Assembly: GCF_900113045.1 (NCBI RefSeq)
Contig: NZ_FONY01000015.1
Location: forward strand, 1 to 45,515
DNA: 45,515 nt
Direction: 5' to 3'
From: Thermoflexibacter ruber
GTDB lineage: Bacteria > Bacteroidota > Bacteroidia > Cytophagales > Thermoflexibacteraceae
Positions 19,266 through 45,515 of the stretch are shown here, one piece after another (position 1 is the stretch's first letter; each line of letters begins with the position of its first letter). The position numbers and the translations under genes were made by a program. The notes beneath the pieces were generated by a model. The model saw nothing but the letters and a program-made list of their open reading frames with translations. It searched no databases and was not told the DNA's origin.

Positions 19266-20555
19266 ATGAACGAGGTATTTGTAAAACTCAAACGCAACTT
19301 TGGATTGACGCTGATACTGGCGATAGGGCTGGGCGTAGAGTTCACCAATTTCCAAAGTATGTTTTTCAGATTCATGCTGTCGTACAGACCTGATTGGGGT
19401 GCCATCAACCATGTACCTGCCATGTTTCTGAGTGCCTTTTTGCTCTTGTGCATCGTCATTTTTGGGATTCGCAAGCAGGTAGTGTTGTCTTGGTTTTTGG
19501 CTTTGCTGACTTGTGTGGTTTCTTTTACCGTATATAGCCGCATGGAGTTGAGCTGGGAATGGGAGAAAATGGACGAACTGAACTTTGTCGTGCTGATTCT
19601 GAGTGCCATGTTGCCTATGTTAGTAGCTTATAGCACTCATCAAATCGCTCACGATGAAGAGGAGGACATGAGCGAACTCATGGCTGACTTGGAACGCAGG
19701 AAACGCAGACAAATGCAAAACGAGATGATACGTCAAAAAGAACTGCAATATGCTCAAGAGCGTAAGCGTTTGAAAGCCTCTTTAGCACAAGCTTTGAGAG
19801 AGGAGGAGCGTATGAAAATGAGAGATTTGCAAAGCTATCAAAACGGATTTGCTAATCCCTACCAAGATGATGAGGATTTTGAGCCTGTTTACCAAAAAGC
19901 AAAATACTCCTCGACTCAAGAGGACTTGGCAGAGAAATTTGTAACCAGTAAGCAGTATAACTCTGTGAATTTCACACCCATAAGGGATAAATCTTCTAAA
20001 AATACCTCTTACAAGCCGGTGGAAAATAAAGAGAAAAGCAACCACACCAAAGAGCGTTATGCAGAGGAGAAAAACACAGAAAGCAAGCTAAAAACTACTC
20101 CAAAAATTATGCAAGCAAAGCCTCAATACGAGGAAGCAGAAAGCAGAGTAGTTAAAAATGAGGTGATAACAAGAAATGAAAACCTCTCTAAGCGATTCAG
20201 AGAAGAGATCGAGAAAGAACAAAGGCAAGAGCAAGAAAAGCAAGAGGTAGCAAGAGAAGTAGTTTTCAATTTTGCCAAAAATGAAAATGTAGCTAAGCAT
20301 ATCCCTCTCTCTAAGATGAGCGAGGACAGCAATCCACGCAAAGTAGCTGGAGGATACAAAATTACTTGTGTGCATTGTGGGAAAGAAGTCGTCAAAAAGT
20401 CAAAAACAGCCAAATACTGCTCTACCTCCTGCCGAGTAGCACACAACAAAGAGTCGGGCATAGAAGACGATGGCAAAGGTCATGCTTTTTACTTAGTAAA
20501 AGACGATTTTGAAAACTCTGGCGTGATAGAGTGGGCAAATGCAGAAAGCGTATAA
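19266..20555 (+). CDS. Four-helix membrane protein with coiled coil and C-terminal zinc finger
   Basis: 429 residues. Four hydrophobic segments lie at about 11-33, 50-66, 71-90 and 104-124. A long charged, helical, Glu/Lys/Arg/Gln-rich region (about 130-340) is likely coiled coil with disordered parts. Near the end is a four-cysteine zinc finger C368-x2-C371-x13-C385-x3-C389 with Y-C-S-T-S-C-R. The tail would lie in the cytoplasm. I know no family with this layout. The same finger occurs in the small protein at 20883, and a replication-initiator-like gene follows, so a role in tethering a nucleoprotein complex to the membrane is conceivable but speculative. Upstream and downstream gaps exceed 300 nt. 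Confidence 0.75.
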   Translation: MNEVFVKLKRNFGLTLILAIGLGVEFTNFQSMFFRFMLSYRPDWGAINHVPAMFLSAFLLLCIVIFGIRKQVVLSWFLALLTCVVSFTVYSRMELSWEWEKMDELNFVVLILSAMLPMLVAYSTHQIAHDEEEDMSELMADLERRKRRQMQNEMIRQKELQYAQERKRLKASLAQALREEERMKMRDLQSYQNGFANPYQDDEDFEPVYQKAKYSSTQEDLAEKFVTSKQYNSVNFTPIRDKSSKNTSYKPVENKEKSNHTKERYAEEKNTESKLKTTPKIMQAKPQYEEAESRVVKNEVITRNENLSKRFREEIEKEQRQEQEKQEVAREVVFNFAKNENVAKHIPLSKMSEDSNPRKVAGGYKITCVHCGKEVVKKSKTAKYCSTSCRVAHNKESGIEDDGKGHAFYLVKDDFENSGVIEWANAESV

Positions 20556-20882
20556 TATATAATATAAGATTGAAAATCAAGCTCTTTAAAGTAAAATATT
20601 GTTAATCATTTGTTTATGTGAAAATCTACCATAGTTTTCAATGTTTTATGTGATAGTATATAAAACACCTCTGAGGCACAATTTACTTTAAAAAAGAACT
20701 TTTAAAATCAATGATTGGCACTGTCAGAAAGTTAAGTAAGCCCAATTTGCATCTTTCCACGAAGTTCAAAAACGGGCGAACTAAGCCAGAATAAAATCAG
20801 TTTTGCTACTATATCAAAGTATCTTCTTTCAATGATTAAAATGAAAAAATGAATAATCAAAAACTTTAAAACAGCTAAAAAA
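20556..20882. other. Intergenic region between the two zinc-finger genes
   Basis: These 327 nt have no plausible gene. Positions 20721-20749 (CTGTCAGAAAGTTAA ... CCCAATTTG) resemble the core of the palindromic repeat at 17294 and may be a decayed piece of it. No terminator with a strong stem was found after the upstream gene. Confidence 0.45.
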
Positions 20883-21299
20883 ATGACAAAAGTAGAAAAT
20901 GCAAACAAGAAAACAATAGAAAAGCGTTTGGTGGAAAATCCCAAAGCCAATGCTACTCTTGGGAAGTGTTGCAAATACTGCAATAAGCAGATTCAATACT
21001 TTACCAATGATAGGCAAGAGTATTGCTCTAACACCTGTCGCAGTGCGGCGAACCAAGCTAAGCGCATTGCTAAGATGGAGATGAGTGAGCTAAAAAAAGA
21101 AACTGCAGAGATAGCAAAGCGTTTCCCAAATGGAAATGATGCAATCAATGCCGCTCATAACATGACCAATGAGCAGCTTTGGAAGTTAGTAGAGGTAATG
21201 ATGACTGAGTTGGCGGCAGAGAAAGCCAAAAACGCAAGCCTTTCTAAAGAATTAGGACGCTTCAAAAAAATAGCTTTCAACTTGTATGTTACTGAGTAA
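20883..21299 (+). CDS. Small zinc-finger protein with helical C-terminus
   Basis: 138 residues, soluble, basic at the N-terminus. The finger is C30-x2-C33-x14-C48-x3-C52 with Y-C-S-N-T-C-R-S-A-A-N, closely matching the one at the end of the membrane protein upstream. It is followed by a Lys/Glu-rich helix and a C-terminal helical part (N-E-Q-L-W-K-L-V-E-V-M-M-T-E-L) likely to oligomerise. The Y-C-S-x-x-C-R-x-A pattern is shared with small Zn-ribbon domains of DNA-associated proteins. No function is known to me. A terminator lies 113 nt after the stop. Confidence 0.7.
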   Translation: MTKVENANKKTIEKRLVENPKANATLGKCCKYCNKQIQYFTNDRQEYCSNTCRSAANQAKRIAKMEMSELKKETAEIAKRFPNGNDAINAAHNMTNEQLWKLVEVMMTELAAEKAKNASLSKELGRFKKIAFNLYVTE

Positions 21300-21411
21300 T
21301 TGTTGGTTTTTAGTTTGTAGTTTTTTGTGATATGCGATTAAGTTCCTTGTTCATAATTAGTATCTTTTAACTCTGCTATATAAATTTAAAGTATTTGACT
21401 AATTTCCTTTG

Positions 21412-21443
21412 AAAAAGCTATTCAAATTTGGATAGCTTTTTTT
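21412..21443 (+). terminator. Terminator downstream of the small zinc-finger gene
   Basis: AAAAAGCTAT (21412-21421) pairs with ATAGCTTTTT (21432-21441), followed by more T. It serves plus-strand transcripts from the zinc-finger gene. Confidence 0.75.
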
Positions 21444-21446
21444 GTT

Positions 21447-21500
21447 GTAGGGACAAGGAAAAACCGTTCTTTAACCTCGATTGTTGTACCAACTTTCTAA
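21447..21500. repeat. Repeat-like block shared with the region near 32125-32180
   Basis: It contains CGTTCTTTAA and ends AACTTTCTAA. Both strings occur in the same order and similar spacing at 32149-32180, just inside and before the palindromic element there. The rest is diverged, so this is probably a decayed relative. Confidence 0.4.
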
Positions 21501-21761
21501 ATATATATAAATATCTTAAAATTAAATTATTTTAATTATAAAAAAGCAAACTATATTTTTATCTTAATCTAAAATTTAAAATTATAGTTTTTGTAACTAT
21601 TGGCTAATCATTACTTTATACTATATAACTTCATTTTACATAAAGTTATAAACAATAAGTAATTGAAAATCAGCTAATTAGTTAAATGTTATATAATAGG
21701 GTTTATGTATAAAAATTAAAAAAGCATACCCAGCTTTTAATCAAAATCTTATTATCCTACA

Positions 21762-22838
21762 CTAAGCTATACAGGCAATTAACTCATTCAAATCTGCTAC
21801 GTTATGGGCTTGGGACATATCTATTGGCTTATGATAGACATTTTCATATACCTCAGCAAAAATCTCTTTCTTTATTTCTGTGTCGTACTCATTATTACCC
21901 AACCATTGTTGGAAAAGATTAGGATACTGTTTTTCGTATTTGTATAAATAAAAATCTTGTAATTTATTGAAAAGCTGATTCTTAAACATCTCTTTTTTGG
22001 GAGAGAGTTTATTAAATTCTTTGAATACTATGCGAATAGAATAAGCGTGGCTCTGTCCTGCCGCTTTGTAAAACTCAAATTCAAAATTCAAGGAAGTGCG
22101 TTCTTGAATTTCTCGTAGTGCTTTTTGCAAGTGCCTTTTTTTCTCACGATTATTCTCGTAGTGAATATCTGCTATTTTGCAAAGGTGGTCAAAGTAAGGT
22201 GTAATTTCTTCTTTTTTGTACATAGCAACGTGTTGTAACATAGAAAGATACATAAAAAGACTTTTATTTCTCTGTGTACCAGCCGCTATGTAATCTTCTA
22301 AAAATACAGTAGAATAATAGCTTAATAAATTGGAGATGAACTCTTTGCTGAGTTTTAGCTCGTAGTACCTTTTCTGAGGACGGCGAGAGTCATAAAGTAC
22401 CCTTGCGTCCACTAATACAGGAATACTGGAAATCCCTTCTATGTTCATGCCTGGTACTTTTGCCTTATAAGTGAATACAATGTTTTCCTTTATCATGCGG
22501 AAGATAGTGTATTCTAACTGAGAACTCCACTCATAACCATTGATACTTGGTTTGTGTTTGCGTGTTTCTGCGGCGGGGTGTCTTTTACTAAGGTTGGATT
22601 TTTTATAGCCCATGACTTTACAGAAGTCAGTCAAGGAAACGCGATTAAAGCCAAATAAATTATGAGTATAATTATAACATATATAGACAATTAAGTCCCT
22701 TACTAAACCTGCATCAGTGCCATAATGCTCGTTAATATCTGCCGCATTTAAGATAATGTTTCGCTCTACTCTGACAGGAGAAAGTGTATTAGTAGAAGAA
22801 GATGTGGAATTTTGAGAGTTTACCGCAGTTGTTGTCAT
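21762..22838 (-). CDS. Replication-initiator-like (RepB/Rep_3-like) protein
   Basis: 358 residues, soluble, basic. After a Ser/Thr/Asn-rich disordered N-terminus (about 1-22) come N-I-I-L-N-A-A-D-I-N, then helices with a winged-helix-like D-F-C-K-V-M-G-Y-K-K-S-N-L-S (about 65-85). A second segment near 195-260 contains S-L-F-M-Y-L-S-M-L-Q-H and L-Q-K-A-L-R-E-I-Q-E-R-T, typical of the second winged helix of plasmid initiators. The general build matches Rep_3-superfamily initiators, but I cannot confirm it without a profile search, and a different DNA-binding role is possible. It has a perfect Bacteroidota promoter. No partition, mobilisation or integrase gene is nearby. Confidence 0.55.
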   Translation of the reverse strand: MTTTAVNSQNSTSSSTNTLSPVRVERNIILNAADINEHYGTDAGLVRDLIVYICYNYTHNLFGFNRVSLTDFCKVMGYKKSNLSKRHPAAETRKHKPSINGYEWSSQLEYTIFRMIKENIVFTYKAKVPGMNIEGISSIPVLVDARVLYDSRRPQKRYYELKLSKEFISNLLSYYSTVFLEDYIAAGTQRNKSLFMYLSMLQHVAMYKKEEITPYFDHLCKIADIHYENNREKKRHLQKALREIQERTSLNFEFEFYKAAGQSHAYSIRIVFKEFNKLSPKKEMFKNQLFNKLQDFYLYKYEKQYPNLFQQWLGNNEYDTEIKKEIFAEVYENVYHKPIDMSQAHNVADLNELIACIA

Positions 22839-22882
22839 ATTTTTCTTATTTTAGCAAAGCAAACGCAAATTACATTTAGCTA

Positions 22883-22913
22883 CAAAGTTAAAATTATTAA
22901 AAATATTTCCAAA
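22883..22913 (-). promoter_or_regulatory. Consensus Bacteroidota promoter of the initiator-like gene
   Basis: On the minus strand TTTG (22913-22910), a 19-nt spacer and TAACTTTG (22890-22883) match the TTTG-N19-21-TAnnTTTG consensus fully. Transcription would start near 22876, leaving a leader of about 38 nt. Confidence 0.75.
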
Positions 22914-22951
22914 AAACTTAGGTAAAAAAAATCTTTTTTCTCAAAAAAATT

Positions 22952-41789: not shown

Positions 41790-44700
41790 TTAAAGTTTGA
41801 TTACTTTGACCGAAACGTTGGTAGTACTGCTTATGATTCTTACTATATACGAGCCACTTGCTTGGTTAGTCATGTCTATAAAGAAGCCTTGTACTTTACC
41901 ATTAGTCAAGAAGACATTTCTTTGATATACGATTGTCCCAGTAATAGAAACTACTACCACTTGGATTTGACTATCCGCAGGGTTTTGATAATCTAAGTAG
42001 AATCGTCCATCTACTGATGGGTTAGGATATACTTGATATACCAAAGAAGATTCATCTATCTGACCATTGCAGTTGTTATCTATTCCGTCAGGTACTTCCG
42101 TTGCGTCTGGGTGTACATTTGGATTGTTGTCATTGCAATCACCTTTGTTAGATACGTAGCCCGTAGGTTTCACACAAGACTTGATAGTTACACTTGGATT
42201 ACCAAAGCCATCGCCATCTGCATCTTGATACCAAATAGTATTGGGATTAATCTTCGCATCTGAATCATCACAATCTGTATTGTCTGGCACATATCCTATT
42301 GGAGCGGTGCAAGCAGATACCACTACATTTGGATTACCAAAGCCGTCTCCGTCTGCATCGCGATACCACTTAGGCACTGTTCCGTCAGGATTGAAGATGG
42401 TAGGACAGTTATCAGTATTGTTGCTAACATATCCATCTGGTCGAGAGCAAGCCTGAATCGCATTTGCAGGGTCTCCTAAGCCATCTCTATCTTGGTCGAG
42501 ATACCAAGTAGGGATAACTTGATTAGGATTAGGCAGTGTTGGACAGTTATCTGTACCATTTAGTACATAGTTTCCAACAGGTTTTGTACAAGAAACAATG
42601 AAGTTGTTAGGGTCTCCAAAGCCATCTCCGTCTTGGTCTAAGTACCACTTTGTATTTGGATTGATATTCCTATTTGTATCATCGCAATCTGTATTATTTC
42701 TGACATATCCTGCAGGTTGCAAGCATTGAGTTCTTACATCGGCAGGATTACCAAAGCCATCTCCGTCTGCATCACGATACCATTTCGTATTAGGATTCAA
42801 ACTTGCATCACTATCGTTACAATCTTGATTATTTCTCACAAAACCTGCGGGTTGAGTACATGATTTTTGCGTAACACTTGGATTACCAAAACCATCTCCG
42901 TCTGCATCGCGATACCAAATAGTATTAGGATTCAAGGTTGCATCACTGTCGTTGCAGTCTGCATTGCTTCTGACGTATCCCACAGGTTGCAAGCATTGAG
43001 TCCTTACATCGGCAGGATTACCAAAGCCGTCGCCGTCAGCATCACGATACCATTTGGTATTCGGATTGATGTCTGCCTTAGTATCATCACAGTCTGTATT
43101 ATCTCTAATATATCCCGCAGGTTGCAAGCATTGGGTTTTTACATCAGCAGGATTGCCAAAGCCATCGCCGTCAGCATCACGATACCATTTTGTATTTGGA
43201 TTTAGAGTAGCATCATTATCGTTACAATCCGAATTATTGGTAACGAAATTACCCACAGGTTTCGCACATTGGGTAAAGGCTACTGCACCTGCACCAAAGC
43301 CATCATTATCGTTATCTGCATACCACTTTGTATTTGGATTAATGCTTGCGTCGTTATCGTTACAATCCGTATTGTTCATTACATAACCTGCTGGCTGTGA
43401 ACAAGCTACTACGCTTATACTTGGATTGCCAAAGCCATCGCCATCAGCATCACGATACCATACCGCAGTAGGTTTGATGGCAGGATTAGTGTCATCACAA
43501 TCCCCATTATTAGTAACATAGCTGCCTGTTGGTTTAGCACATTGGACAAAGACTACTGGTCCAGCTCCAAAACCATCGCCGTCGTTATCTGCATACCATT
43601 TTGTATTTGGATTCAAGGTAGCATCGCTGTCATTGCAATCAGTGTTATCTCTGATATATCCTGCAGGTTGTAAGCATTGAGTTTTTACATTAGCAGGATT
43701 GCCAAAGCCATCGCCGTCTGCATCGCGATACCATTTCGTATTAGGATTGATGTCTGCCTTAGTATCATCGCAGTCCGTGTTGTTAGTAACATAATTACCC
43801 GCAGGTTTGTTACATTGTGTAAATGCAACCGTCGCTGCTCCAAACCCATCTCCATCATTGTCTGCATACCATTTTGTATTTGGATTTAGACTTGCATTGC
43901 TATCATTACAATCTGTGTTATCTCTAACATATCCAGTTGGTTGCAAGCATTGGTTTTTTACGTCAGCAGGATTGCCAAAGCCATCGCCGTCTGCATCGCG
44001 ATACCATTGCGTATTGGGATTGATGTCTGCCTTAGTATCATCGCAATCTGTATTATCCCTAATATATCCAGTTGGTTGCAAGCATTGGGTTTTTGCATCA
44101 GCAGGATTACCAAAGCCATCGCCGTCTGCATCACGGTACCATTTTGTATTGGGATTCAGGGTAGCATCGCTATCATTGCAATCAGCATTGCTAAGCACAA
44201 AGCCCGTTGGTTGGGTACAACTTACTTGGGTTATAGTAGGATTACCAAAGCCGTCTCCATCTGCATCGCGATACCATACAGTTGTTGGGTTAATAGCTAC
44301 ATTATTATCATTGCAATCCGTGTTATTTCTAACATATCCAGCAGGTTGCAAGCATTGGGTTTTTACGTCAGCCGGATTGCCAAATCCATCGCCGTCTGCA
44401 TCACGATACCATTGCGTATTGGGGTTAATATCTGCTTTGGTATCATCACAGTCCGTGTTATTTCTAACATATCCAGCAGGTTGCAAGCATTGAGTTTTTT
44501 CATCAGCCGGATTGCCAAAGCCATCGCCGTCTGCATCGCGATACCATTTCGTATTGGGATTCAGGGTAGCATCGCTATCGTTACAATCAGCATTGTTAAG
44601 CACAAAGCCTGTTGGTTGCGTACAGCTTACTTGAGTTATGGCAGGATTGCCAAAGCCGTCTCCATCTGCATCACGGTACCATACAGTTGTTGGGTTAATA

Positions 44701-45515
44701 GCTGCGTTATTATCATTACAATCCGTGTTATTTCTAACATATCCAGCAGGTTGCAAGCATTGGGTTTTTTCATCAGCCGGATTGCCAAAGCCATCGCCGT
44801 CTGCATCACGATACCATTTCGTATTAGGATTGATGTCTGCCTTAGTATCATCGCAATCAGCATTGTTAAGCACAAAGCCTGTTGGTTGCGTACAACTTAC
44901 TTGGGTTATGGCAGGATTACCAAAGCCGTCTCCATCTGTATCGCGATACCATACAGTTGTTGGGTTAATAGCTACATTATTATCATTGCAATCCGTATTA
45001 TTTCTAACATATCCAGCAGGTTGCAAGCATTGAGTTTTTTCATCAGCCGGATTGCCAAAGCCATCGCCATCTGCATCACGATACCATTTCGTATTAGGAT
45101 TCAGAGTAGCATCGCTATCGTTACAATCAGCATTGTTAAGCACAAAGCCTGTTGGTTGCGTACAACTTACTTGAGTTATGGCAGGATTGCCAAAGCCGTC
45201 TCCATCTGCATCACGGTACCATACAGTTGTTGGGTTAATAGCTACATTATTATCATCACAATCCGTGTTATTTCTAACATATCCAGCAGGTTGCAAGCAT
45301 TGAGTTTTTTCATCAGCCGGATTGCCAAAGCCATCGCCATCTGCATCACGATACCATTTCGTATTAGGATTCAGAGTAGTATCATTATCGTTGCAATCCG
45401 TATTATTAGTTACATAGTTACCTGTAGGTTTAGTACATTGAGTAAAAGCAACTGCCCCTGCGCCAAAACCGTCATTATCGTTGTCCAGATACCATTGTGT
45501 ATTTGGATTAATAGC
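41790..45515 (-). CDS. Giant secreted protein of 45-residue calcium-binding-type repeats, T9SS C-terminal domain (5' part beyond window)
   Basis: About 1242 codons are visible and the frame is open through the right edge. A start shown at a TTG (45296) is internal to a repeat. About 25 units of about 45 residues (135 nt) follow the pattern W-Y-R-D-A-D-G-D-G-F-G-N-P ... C-x-x-P-x-G-Y-V-x-N-x-x-D-C-x-D-x-x-x-x-x-x-P-N-T. The D-x-D-G-D-G-x-G loop is of the thrombospondin-3 calcium type and the D-C-x-D part is of the MopE type. Most units carry two Cys, probably one disulfide each. Two units near the C-terminus are N-C-P variants. The end is a type IX secretion sorting domain (V-Y-P-N-P-S ... G-S-Y-I-V-R-I ... 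V-K-V-I-K-L). It is likely a long, rigid surface or extracellular adhesin. Confidence 0.93.
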   Translation of the reverse strand, partial: AINPNTQWYLDNDNDGFGAGAVAFTQCTKPTGNYVTNNTDCNDNDTTLNPNTKWYRDADGDGFGNPADEKTQCLQPAGYVRNNTDCDDNNVAINPTTVWYRDADGDGFGNPAITQVSCTQPTGFVLNNADCNDSDATLNPNTKWYRDADGDGFGNPADEKTQCLQPAGYVRNNTDCNDNNVAINPTTVWYRDTDGDGFGNPAITQVSCTQPTGFVLNNADCDDTKADINPNTKWYRDADGDGFGNPADEKTQCLQPAGYVRNNTDCNDNNAAINPTTVWYRDADGDGFGNPAITQVSCTQPTGFVLNNADCNDSDATLNPNTKWYRDADGDGFGNPADEKTQCLQPAGYVRNNTDCDDTKADINPNTQWYRDADGDGFGNPADVKTQCLQPAGYVRNNTDCNDNNVAINPTTVWYRDADGDGFGNPTITQVSCTQPTGFVLSNADCNDSDATLNPNTKWYRDADGDGFGNPADAKTQCLQPTGYIRDNTDCDDTKADINPNTQWYRDADGDGFGNPADVKNQCLQPTGYVRDNTDCNDSNASLNPNTKWYADNDGDGFGAATVAFTQCNKPAGNYVTNNTDCDDTKADINPNTKWYRDADGDGFGNPANVKTQCLQPAGYIRDNTDCNDSDATLNPNTKWYADNDGDGFGAGPVVFVQCAKPTGSYVTNNGDCDDTNPAIKPTAVWYRDADGDGFGNPSISVVACSQPAGYVMNNTDCNDNDASINPNTKWYADNDNDGFGAGAVAFTQCAKPVGNFVTNNSDCNDNDATLNPNTKWYRDADGDGFGNPADVKTQCLQPAGYIRDNTDCDDTKADINPNTKWYRDADGDGFGNPADVRTQCLQPVGYVRSNADCNDSDATLNPNTIWYRDADGDGFGNPSVTQKSCTQPAGFVRNNQDCNDSDASLNPNTKWYRDADGDGFGNPADVRTQCLQPAGYVRNNTDCDDTNRNINPNTKWYLDQDGDGFGDPNNFIVSCTKPVGNYVLNGTDNCPTLPNPNQVIPTWYLDQDRDGLGDPANAIQACSRPDGYVSNNTDNCPTIFNPDGTVPKWYRDADGDGFGNPNVVVSACTAPIGYVPDNTDCDDSDAKINPNTIWYQDADGDGFGNPSVTIKSCVKPTGYVSNKGDCNDNNPNVHPDATEVPDGIDNNCNGQIDESSLVYQVYPNPSVDGRFYLDYQNPADSQIQVVVVSITGTIVYQRNVFLTNGKVQGFFIDMTNQASGSYIVRIISSTTNVSVKVIKL
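44220..45515. repeat. Near-identical 135/270-bp tandem DNA repeats within the giant gene
   Basis: In this part units alternate between one type with A-D-E-K-T-Q-C-L-Q-P and one with A-I-T-Q-V-S-C-T-Q-P, so the DNA shows a 270-bp period with long identical blocks, for example around 44640, 44910 and 45180. Toward the C-terminal end (lower coordinates) the units are more diverged. The identity implies recent duplication or gene conversion, and the region is prone to assembly collapse. Confidence 0.8.

Follow-up and report, generated by a model that had tools for sequence, protein, structure and literature searches.

We examined a stretch of 45,515 nucleotides from Thermoflexibacter ruber (assembly GCF_900113045.1, contig NZ_FONY01000015.1, positions 1 to 45,515; hereafter the window), in which three consecutive genes, here called g1, g2, and rep, appear to belong to a plasmid-derived secondary replicon. 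g1 (19266-20555, 429 aa) and g2 (20883-21299, 138 aa) lie on the plus strand, and rep (21762-22838, 358 aa) lies on the minus strand, convergent with g2. They are set apart by AT-rich gaps of 404 bp 5' of g1 (25% GC), 327 bp between g1 and g2 (20556-20882, 26% GC), and 462 bp between g2 and rep (21300-21761, 22% GC), in a window with a GC content of 37%. The open reading frames (ORFs) and the long gaps lie exactly where an earlier reading of the bare sequence, referred to below as the original prediction, had placed them. The median gap between ORFs of at least 100 aa is 127 bp, and 7 of the 38 gaps in the window reach at least 320 bp, so that such spacing is uncommon, not unique. The g2-rep gap holds a terminator-like inverted repeat (21412-21441; 15 + 15 nt, spacerless, 93% complementary) that runs into a T tract, and its comparison with the two congeneric genomes revealed no conserved block. 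No match over the cut-off was obtained for any of the three proteins in Pfam or NCBIfam. Throughout, the genome of T. ruber (G000, with the window and the three genes on contig C72) was compared with its two congeners, G010 (62% complete) and G011, which bring the genus to three genomes, within a family set of 13 and an order set of 390 genomes.

The product of g1 is a predicted membrane protein, for which alignment and hydropathy indicated a conserved hydrophobic N-terminal domain (approximately residues 1-130), a variable charged middle, and a C-terminal zinc finger. Two strong membrane segments and one weaker one were detected, in keeping with the membrane location assigned to it before; the four helices proposed at that time can only be called plausible. 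g2 encodes a soluble protein with an N-terminal zinc finger and a conserved C-terminal segment. The same finger had been noted in both products, and the cysteines were indeed found in each, as C-x2-C-x13-C-x3-C-R in g1 (C368, C371, C385, and C389; 20355-20471, plus strand) and as C-x2-C-x14-C-x3-C-R in g2 (C30, C33, C48, and C52; 20958-21077, plus strand). A profile of this finger detected three strong places only in the genome of T. ruber (66-70 bits; next 14 bits), namely g1, g2, and a further gene, g3. The high scores of these three follow by construction, because the profile was built with them, which is not true of the absence of others, and a regular-expression scan of 0.90 Mb of other sequence of this genome found no finger. 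g3 (contig C41, 2007-3305) encodes a multi-pass membrane protein whose C-terminal end is formed by the finger and is conserved in the three congeneric genomes; two Bernardetia plasmids (20 and 13 kb) carry homologues with the same arrangement. On both of these small plasmids no gene is annotated as Rep, and the opposite strand encodes a coiled-coil-like protein with a hydrophobic segment at its end. A search of g1, g2, rep, and g3 against the PADLOC families gave no match at E ≤ 0.01, and an anti-phage role for the four genes was rejected on this ground.

The third gene had been predicted to encode two winged-helix-like segments resembling Rep_3-type plasmid initiators. Iteron initiators of the Rep_3 family (Pfam PF01051/PF21205) include RepE of mini-F and RepM. 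When a predicted model of rep was searched against the PDB with Foldseek, the first 23 rows were RepE/Rep complexes, some of them listed under truncated titles from one co-crystal series, with 2z9o_B as the best row (E 5.8e-4). VIA-align superposed the first winged-helix domain (WH1, approximately residues 33-173; 22320-22742, minus strand) on RepE WH1 with a Z of up to 7.7 (best row 8ac8_A, rmsd 2.9, 91 residues) and an rmsd of about 3 over 91-98 residues, while longer alignments extended into the second domain (WH2, approximately residues 190-275; 22014-22271, minus strand) at an rmsd of about 15. An hhalign comparison of rep with genuine Rep_3 proteins was collinear and scored 32.6, as against 10.4-13.6 for five column shuffles. 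When the rep profile was run against the sequences of solved structures, it returned chance-level matches only. A confident non-replication fold, which would have spoken against the original prediction, was not obtained. The two winged-helix segments are supported by the predicted model (pLDDT 56) together with the RepE matches, and the resemblance to Rep_3 gains further support from a sub-threshold Rep3_C match and from relatives on 45 plasmid records.

These relatives, identified by tblastn, all belong to Bacteroidota genera; coverage of rep was at least 80% in 35 of the 45 records, at 23-29% identity, and among the 46 matches listed all are annotated as "hypothetical protein", except in one record that has no annotation. 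On two Phocaeicola plasmids the relative follows a ParA gene and a DUF3408 gene. Within the family, rep was present in all three genomes of the genus of the window and in none of the ten others, and in the order its profile matched 24 of 390 genomes, genus included. The closest relatives outside the genus were found in G021, G167, and G360 (37% identity). Among eight outside contigs with relatives, six measured 45-103 kb and two were below 6 kb, and several carried ParA-type genes recognized by eye; in G021 and G167 the order was ParA-type gene (by eye), ParB-like gene, Toprim protein, Rep, and finger protein. Three scans of viral contigs detected no relative of rep, and the three matching records of a phage collection are unverified faecal contigs.

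Several results weigh against this assignment, and hence against the replicon proposed below. The Rep3_C match (19.3 bits, residues 227-264, in the second winged-helix region) lies under the cut-off of 21.1 bits, and Rep3_N was not matched at all. At E ≤ 1, ten aligned rep relatives matched Bro-N in four cases (best 4.2e-4), Rep3_C in three, and Rep3_N in one. The model, derived from three close sequences, is a poor one (pLDDT 56, pTM 0.45); only one of 570 Foldseek matches reached E ≤ 0.001, the whole-chain TM-score to RepE was 0.13-0.19 (rmsd about 15), and unrelated chains also gave VIA Z values of 5.7-6.6. The hhalign probability amounted to 11-13% (scores 32.2 and 32.6). In the region upstream of rep (22839-22951, 19% GC), which is partly conserved near the start codon, no iteron array was found, nor was one found elsewhere near rep or on the contigs bearing rep and partition genes, by a repeat search and by exact 12-mer clusters, from which diverged iterons or a distant origin would escape. 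On the fold, profile, and plasmid-relative evidence taken together, rep looks like a Rep_3-like initiator of plasmid origin that falls outside the Pfam Rep_3 family as such.

The original prediction had noted the absence of par, mob, and integrase genes. This applies within the window, as judged by eye, but not, as far as par is concerned, to the genome, in which a plasmid-type gene of the ParA family (parA2) lies on contig C61 and a ParB-like gene (parB2) on C41. Both are present as single copies in all three genomes of the genus, with identities of 90-91% for ParA2 and 84-87% for ParB2. A second, chromosomal-type ParA is encoded on C54, and DnaA on C34. The identity of parB2 rests on weak PHROG matches (ParB-like, 9.5e-6 and weaker, with the G010 protein), together with its position beside ParA2 in four other genera; no ParB match was obtained in Pfam or NCBIfam. 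In G010, rep, parB2, g1, g2, and parA2 all lie on one contig (C49, 141 kb), and in G011, g1, g2, and parA2 lie together on C329, with rep on C278 (3.9 kb) and parB2 on C55 (15 kb). Arrays of 21 bp near parA2 on C329 were considered as an origin; they resemble intergenic repeats with a 7-bp unit, have no counterpart among the clusters on the examined contigs of T. ruber and G010, and were not taken as one. The notion that rep substitutes for DnaA was likewise rejected, since DnaA is present in T. ruber and G011 (no match in G010, whose assembly is incomplete).

The expected co-occurrence of g1, g2, and rep in other genomes was seen in every genome of the genus, but the three do not form a fixed module, as only g1 and g2 stay together. 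The distance between rep and g1 is about 17 kb in G010, and the two are on different contigs in G011, by which a fixed three-gene operon was rejected. The unit is likely to be the whole secondary replicon instead of a three-gene module. Plasmid-type replication and partition genes, which are among the chromid criteria as the accessible text of PMC12456017 gives them, were found as one copy each of rep, ParA2, and ParB2 in all three genomes.

We then considered whether rep could be a decaying remnant of an integrated plasmid, as one of the two options of the original prediction had it. The absence by eye of par, mob, and integrase genes from the window, and the separation of rep from the other plasmid genes, would fit such a remnant. 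Its frame is intact, however, and among the three congeners synonymous change is saturated (pS 0.75-0.84) while replacements are few (pN 0.045-0.066). In a near-invariant core (residues 20-250; 22089-22781, minus strand), 5 of 231 positions vary among the three species, and rep ranked first by identity among 85 reciprocal best pairs in the compared parts of T. ruber and G010. The pN values of ParA2 (0.059-0.072) and ParB2 (0.069-0.096) were also low, and those of g1 and g2 were 0.16-0.18. The saturated synonymous sites, the few replacements, and the top conservation exclude both a recent horizontal insertion and a decaying remnant; strong purifying selection on rep contradicts the latter, which we regard as highly improbable.

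To examine the linkage of these genes, the 102 ORFs of at least 100 aa on C49 of G010 were compared with 1.29 Mb of T. ruber, comprising the whole of C72, C61, C41, and C34, most of C54, and up to 20 kb from the start of each of 60 further contigs; the control consisted of 203 ORFs taken from 20 other contigs of G010, with at most 20 kb of each. C49 gave 48 reciprocal best hits, 41 of which fell on C61 (24), C72 (11), and C41 (6), while only 3 of 37 control hits fell on these contigs and 34 fell elsewhere (Fisher p = 1.9e-13; 2.5e-12 without the five genes used to choose the contigs). Similarly, 20 of 26 hits of C329 of G011 fell on the same group. Neither C34, with DnaA, nor C54, with the chromosomal-type ParA, received a hit from C49. 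The gene order within the group was scrambled relative to C49, a pattern resembling the bounded linkage group that a separate replicon would produce. On the basis of this difference in linkage (41/48 versus 3/37), the window was interpreted as lying on a chromid-like secondary replicon.

Alternatively, the main chromosome may have absorbed an ancient plasmid before the species of the genus split, retaining and domesticating rep, parA2, and parB2, perhaps to act as regulators or to provide a second origin, so that the shared gene set would be one conserved chromosomal region. The dispersal of rep, parA2, and parB2, which form no single operon, is consistent with such a fusion, and so are the core genes on C49, namely RecO and thioredoxin reductase, both over the cut-off, and a pyrophosphatase-like gene that is also on C61 (E about 4e-49, below the NCBIfam cut-off). 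The same genes, however, agree with the chromid criterion of carrying core genes, provided that C49 and C61 represent the second replicon. Composition also failed to separate the group from the controls (delta* 0.010-0.027), and the GC content of C72, C41, and C61 together (about 37.2%) was within the 1% expected of a chromid from that of C34 and C54 (about 37.7%; hand-weighted, two control contigs). Against a fusion, a chromosomal region rearranging at the same rate should leak, whereas the C49 genes map mostly to the three contigs in scrambled order and most control genes map elsewhere, often to several contigs; moreover, rep, parA2, and parB2 are all strongly constrained in the three species. 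We consider the fusion unlikely. The placement of rRNA genes was uninformative, because the one-contig genome G015 also gave no match, and the GC skew of the window was not decisive.

As for the finger genes, g1 and g2 are adjacent in the three genomes of the genus and in G006 and G004 of the family. The latter two lack the rep of the window and instead carry a genuine Rep_3 gene (in G006, Rep3_N 4.6e-12 and Rep3_C 6.5e-10, both over the cut-off), which adjoins g2-g1 in G004 and parB2-parA2 in G006 and is absent from the genus of the window. Of the family genomes, the five that have either rep all had an intact g2 beside g1, and the eight that lack both reps had none (Fisher p 0.0008, a value that ignores shared ancestry). 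Directly after rep, a g2-like finger gene was also found in G021 and G167. The original prediction had offered, as its second option, a membrane protein and a soluble adapter working with the initiator. This idea is strengthened by the finding that in G004 the g1-g2 pair again stands next to a Rep_3 gene, and a different one, and it is still one that we infer.

It is nearly an even chance that the replicon instead merely carries g1, g2, and g3 along, their function being an unrelated one in the envelope or in exclusion, with no part in replicon maintenance. Plasmid- and phage-encoded membrane proteins often function in exclusion, weak matches link the finger to several phage families whose function is mostly unknown, and most rep loci outside the genus have no finger gene. 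The view that a finger gene generally accompanies this Rep family was in fact rejected: outside the genus such a gene stood beside rep in 2 of the 19 order loci scanned, both of one lineage, it was absent in G360, which is also 37% identical, and it was found in none of the eight plasmid and phage loci scanned. In addition, G001, G002, and G003 have g1-like genes but neither ParB2 nor rep, indicating that g1 is not strictly tied to such replicons. Speaking for a role in maintenance are the recurrence of g1-g2 beside the different Rep_3 gene, the finger gene that follows rep in G021 and G167, the absence of any PADLOC match, and the location of every strong finger of T. ruber on contigs with rep or partition genes (g1 and g2 on C72, g3 on C41).

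Taken together, the observed co-occurrence, linkage, selection, and similarity led us to propose, with a probability of roughly 0.65, that the window lies on a plasmid-derived, chromid-like secondary replicon of which rep is the initiator, that ParA2 and ParB2 segregate it, and that g1, g2, and g3 are accessory maintenance proteins. By analogy with Rep_3 and RepE, rep would attach through its pair of winged-helix domains to sites at the replicon origin, where it would open the DNA and load the replisome of the host, DnaA being used by the main chromosome; ParA2, encoded on C61, and ParB2, encoded on C41, would segregate the replicon as in known ParABS systems. The shared finger would most likely bind replicon DNA or the Rep or Par proteins, with g2 as a soluble adapter, and g1 and g2 may thus tether the replicon to the membrane; more loosely still, the finger might be a replicon-specific contact through which replication or segregation is anchored at the inner membrane. 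In its widest form, the proposal would be that some secondary replicons of Cytophagales carry a dedicated membrane-tethering apparatus, consisting of the multi-pass proteins g1 and g3 and the adapter g2, with one replicon-specific finger recognizing the initiator, ParB, or the origin, and that this apparatus stayed in place while the initiator was swapped for another Rep_3-type protein. This broader version is doubtful.

In addition to the weaknesses in the assignment of rep and in the distribution of the finger noted above, the following count against the proposed replicon. It is inferred from the draft contigs of unclosed assemblies. Seven of the 48 hits of C49 fell outside C61, C72, and C41, three of them on the 8.7-kb C103, and one hit of C329 fell on C54. 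C72 alone has a GC content of 35.8%, about 2% off the control contigs, and the tRNA counts were uninformative (1 on 333 kb versus 2 on 264 kb). ParA2-ParB2 is also present in G005 and G012, two genomes that lack g1, g2, and both reps. In G003 (C166, 7473-8384 and 8705-9595), a g1 paralogue adjoins a chromosomal-type parB that is the reciprocal best hit of a gene on C54 of T. ruber, and a 378-aa ORF of G003 that matches g2 weakly was left out of the count given above.

Some further features were noted in passing. Near parA2-parB2 of G012, a set of genes like that of a type III CRISPR effector was recognized by eye (C17, 104-6164). The window also encodes a very long protein made of DGDGFGNP-type repeats (41790-45296), and an even longer protein (more than 5600 aa) is conserved on C61 of T. 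ruber and C49 of G010. Outside the window, C72 carries repeated cassettes at about 86-120 kb, each with a lipoprotein-like gene of about 400 aa and a Cys-motif gene of about 150 aa (some with GGCGGC), to which several cassettes add a glycosyltransferase-like gene of about 455 aa; all cassette names were assigned by eye.

If the proposed replicon is real, it would add a chromid-bearing genus in Cytophagales, one identified in draft contigs through linkage and selection. It would also hint at what a family of "hypothetical" proteins may do that is encoded on 45 plasmid records of Bacteroidota, many of which come from human gut Bacteroides, Parabacteroides, and Phocaeicola, and would offer a concrete test case for a possible attachment of second chromosomes to the bacterial membrane. 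No membrane zinc-finger partner of such replicons is described in the accessible parts of the open-access literature that was searched, which is weak evidence of absence.

A functional parallel for g1 may be p16.7 of phage phi29, a protein with a membrane anchor, a coiled coil, and a C-terminal nucleic-acid-binding domain that organizes replication at the membrane. g1 might work in a similar way, the likeness being one of description, and to our knowledge p16.7 has no such zinc finger. Like Rep_3 initiators, rep has predicted winged-helix domains that match RepE best, plasmid-borne relatives, and a sub-threshold Rep3_C match; unlike them, it stays under the Pfam cut-offs, shows only distant profile similarity, has about 80 residues after WH2, occurs genus-wide, and is accompanied by no iterons that could be found. 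On large plasmids of Bacteroidota (Dyadobacter, Pontibacter, Bacteroides, and others), several initiator-like proteins that resemble rep are encoded near ParA-type or AAA ATPase genes, but they are only 23-29% identical to it in the well-covered records. Among Cytophagales, Flammeovirga has second chromosomes with RepA, ParA, and ParB (PMC8653839), from which the present case differs in its lineage, in a finger protein that the accessible text of that report does not mention, and in that the replicon is here deduced from draft contigs. The Persicobacteraceae, according to the accessible text of PMC10645730, harbour long-lived Rep_3 rrn plasmids that bear rRNA operons, whereas rRNA genes could not be placed in the contig set of T. 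ruber. Here as in the Persicobacteraceae, a long-lived Rep_3-type replicon would be maintained in Cytophagales, and parAB genes are found in Persicobacter as well.

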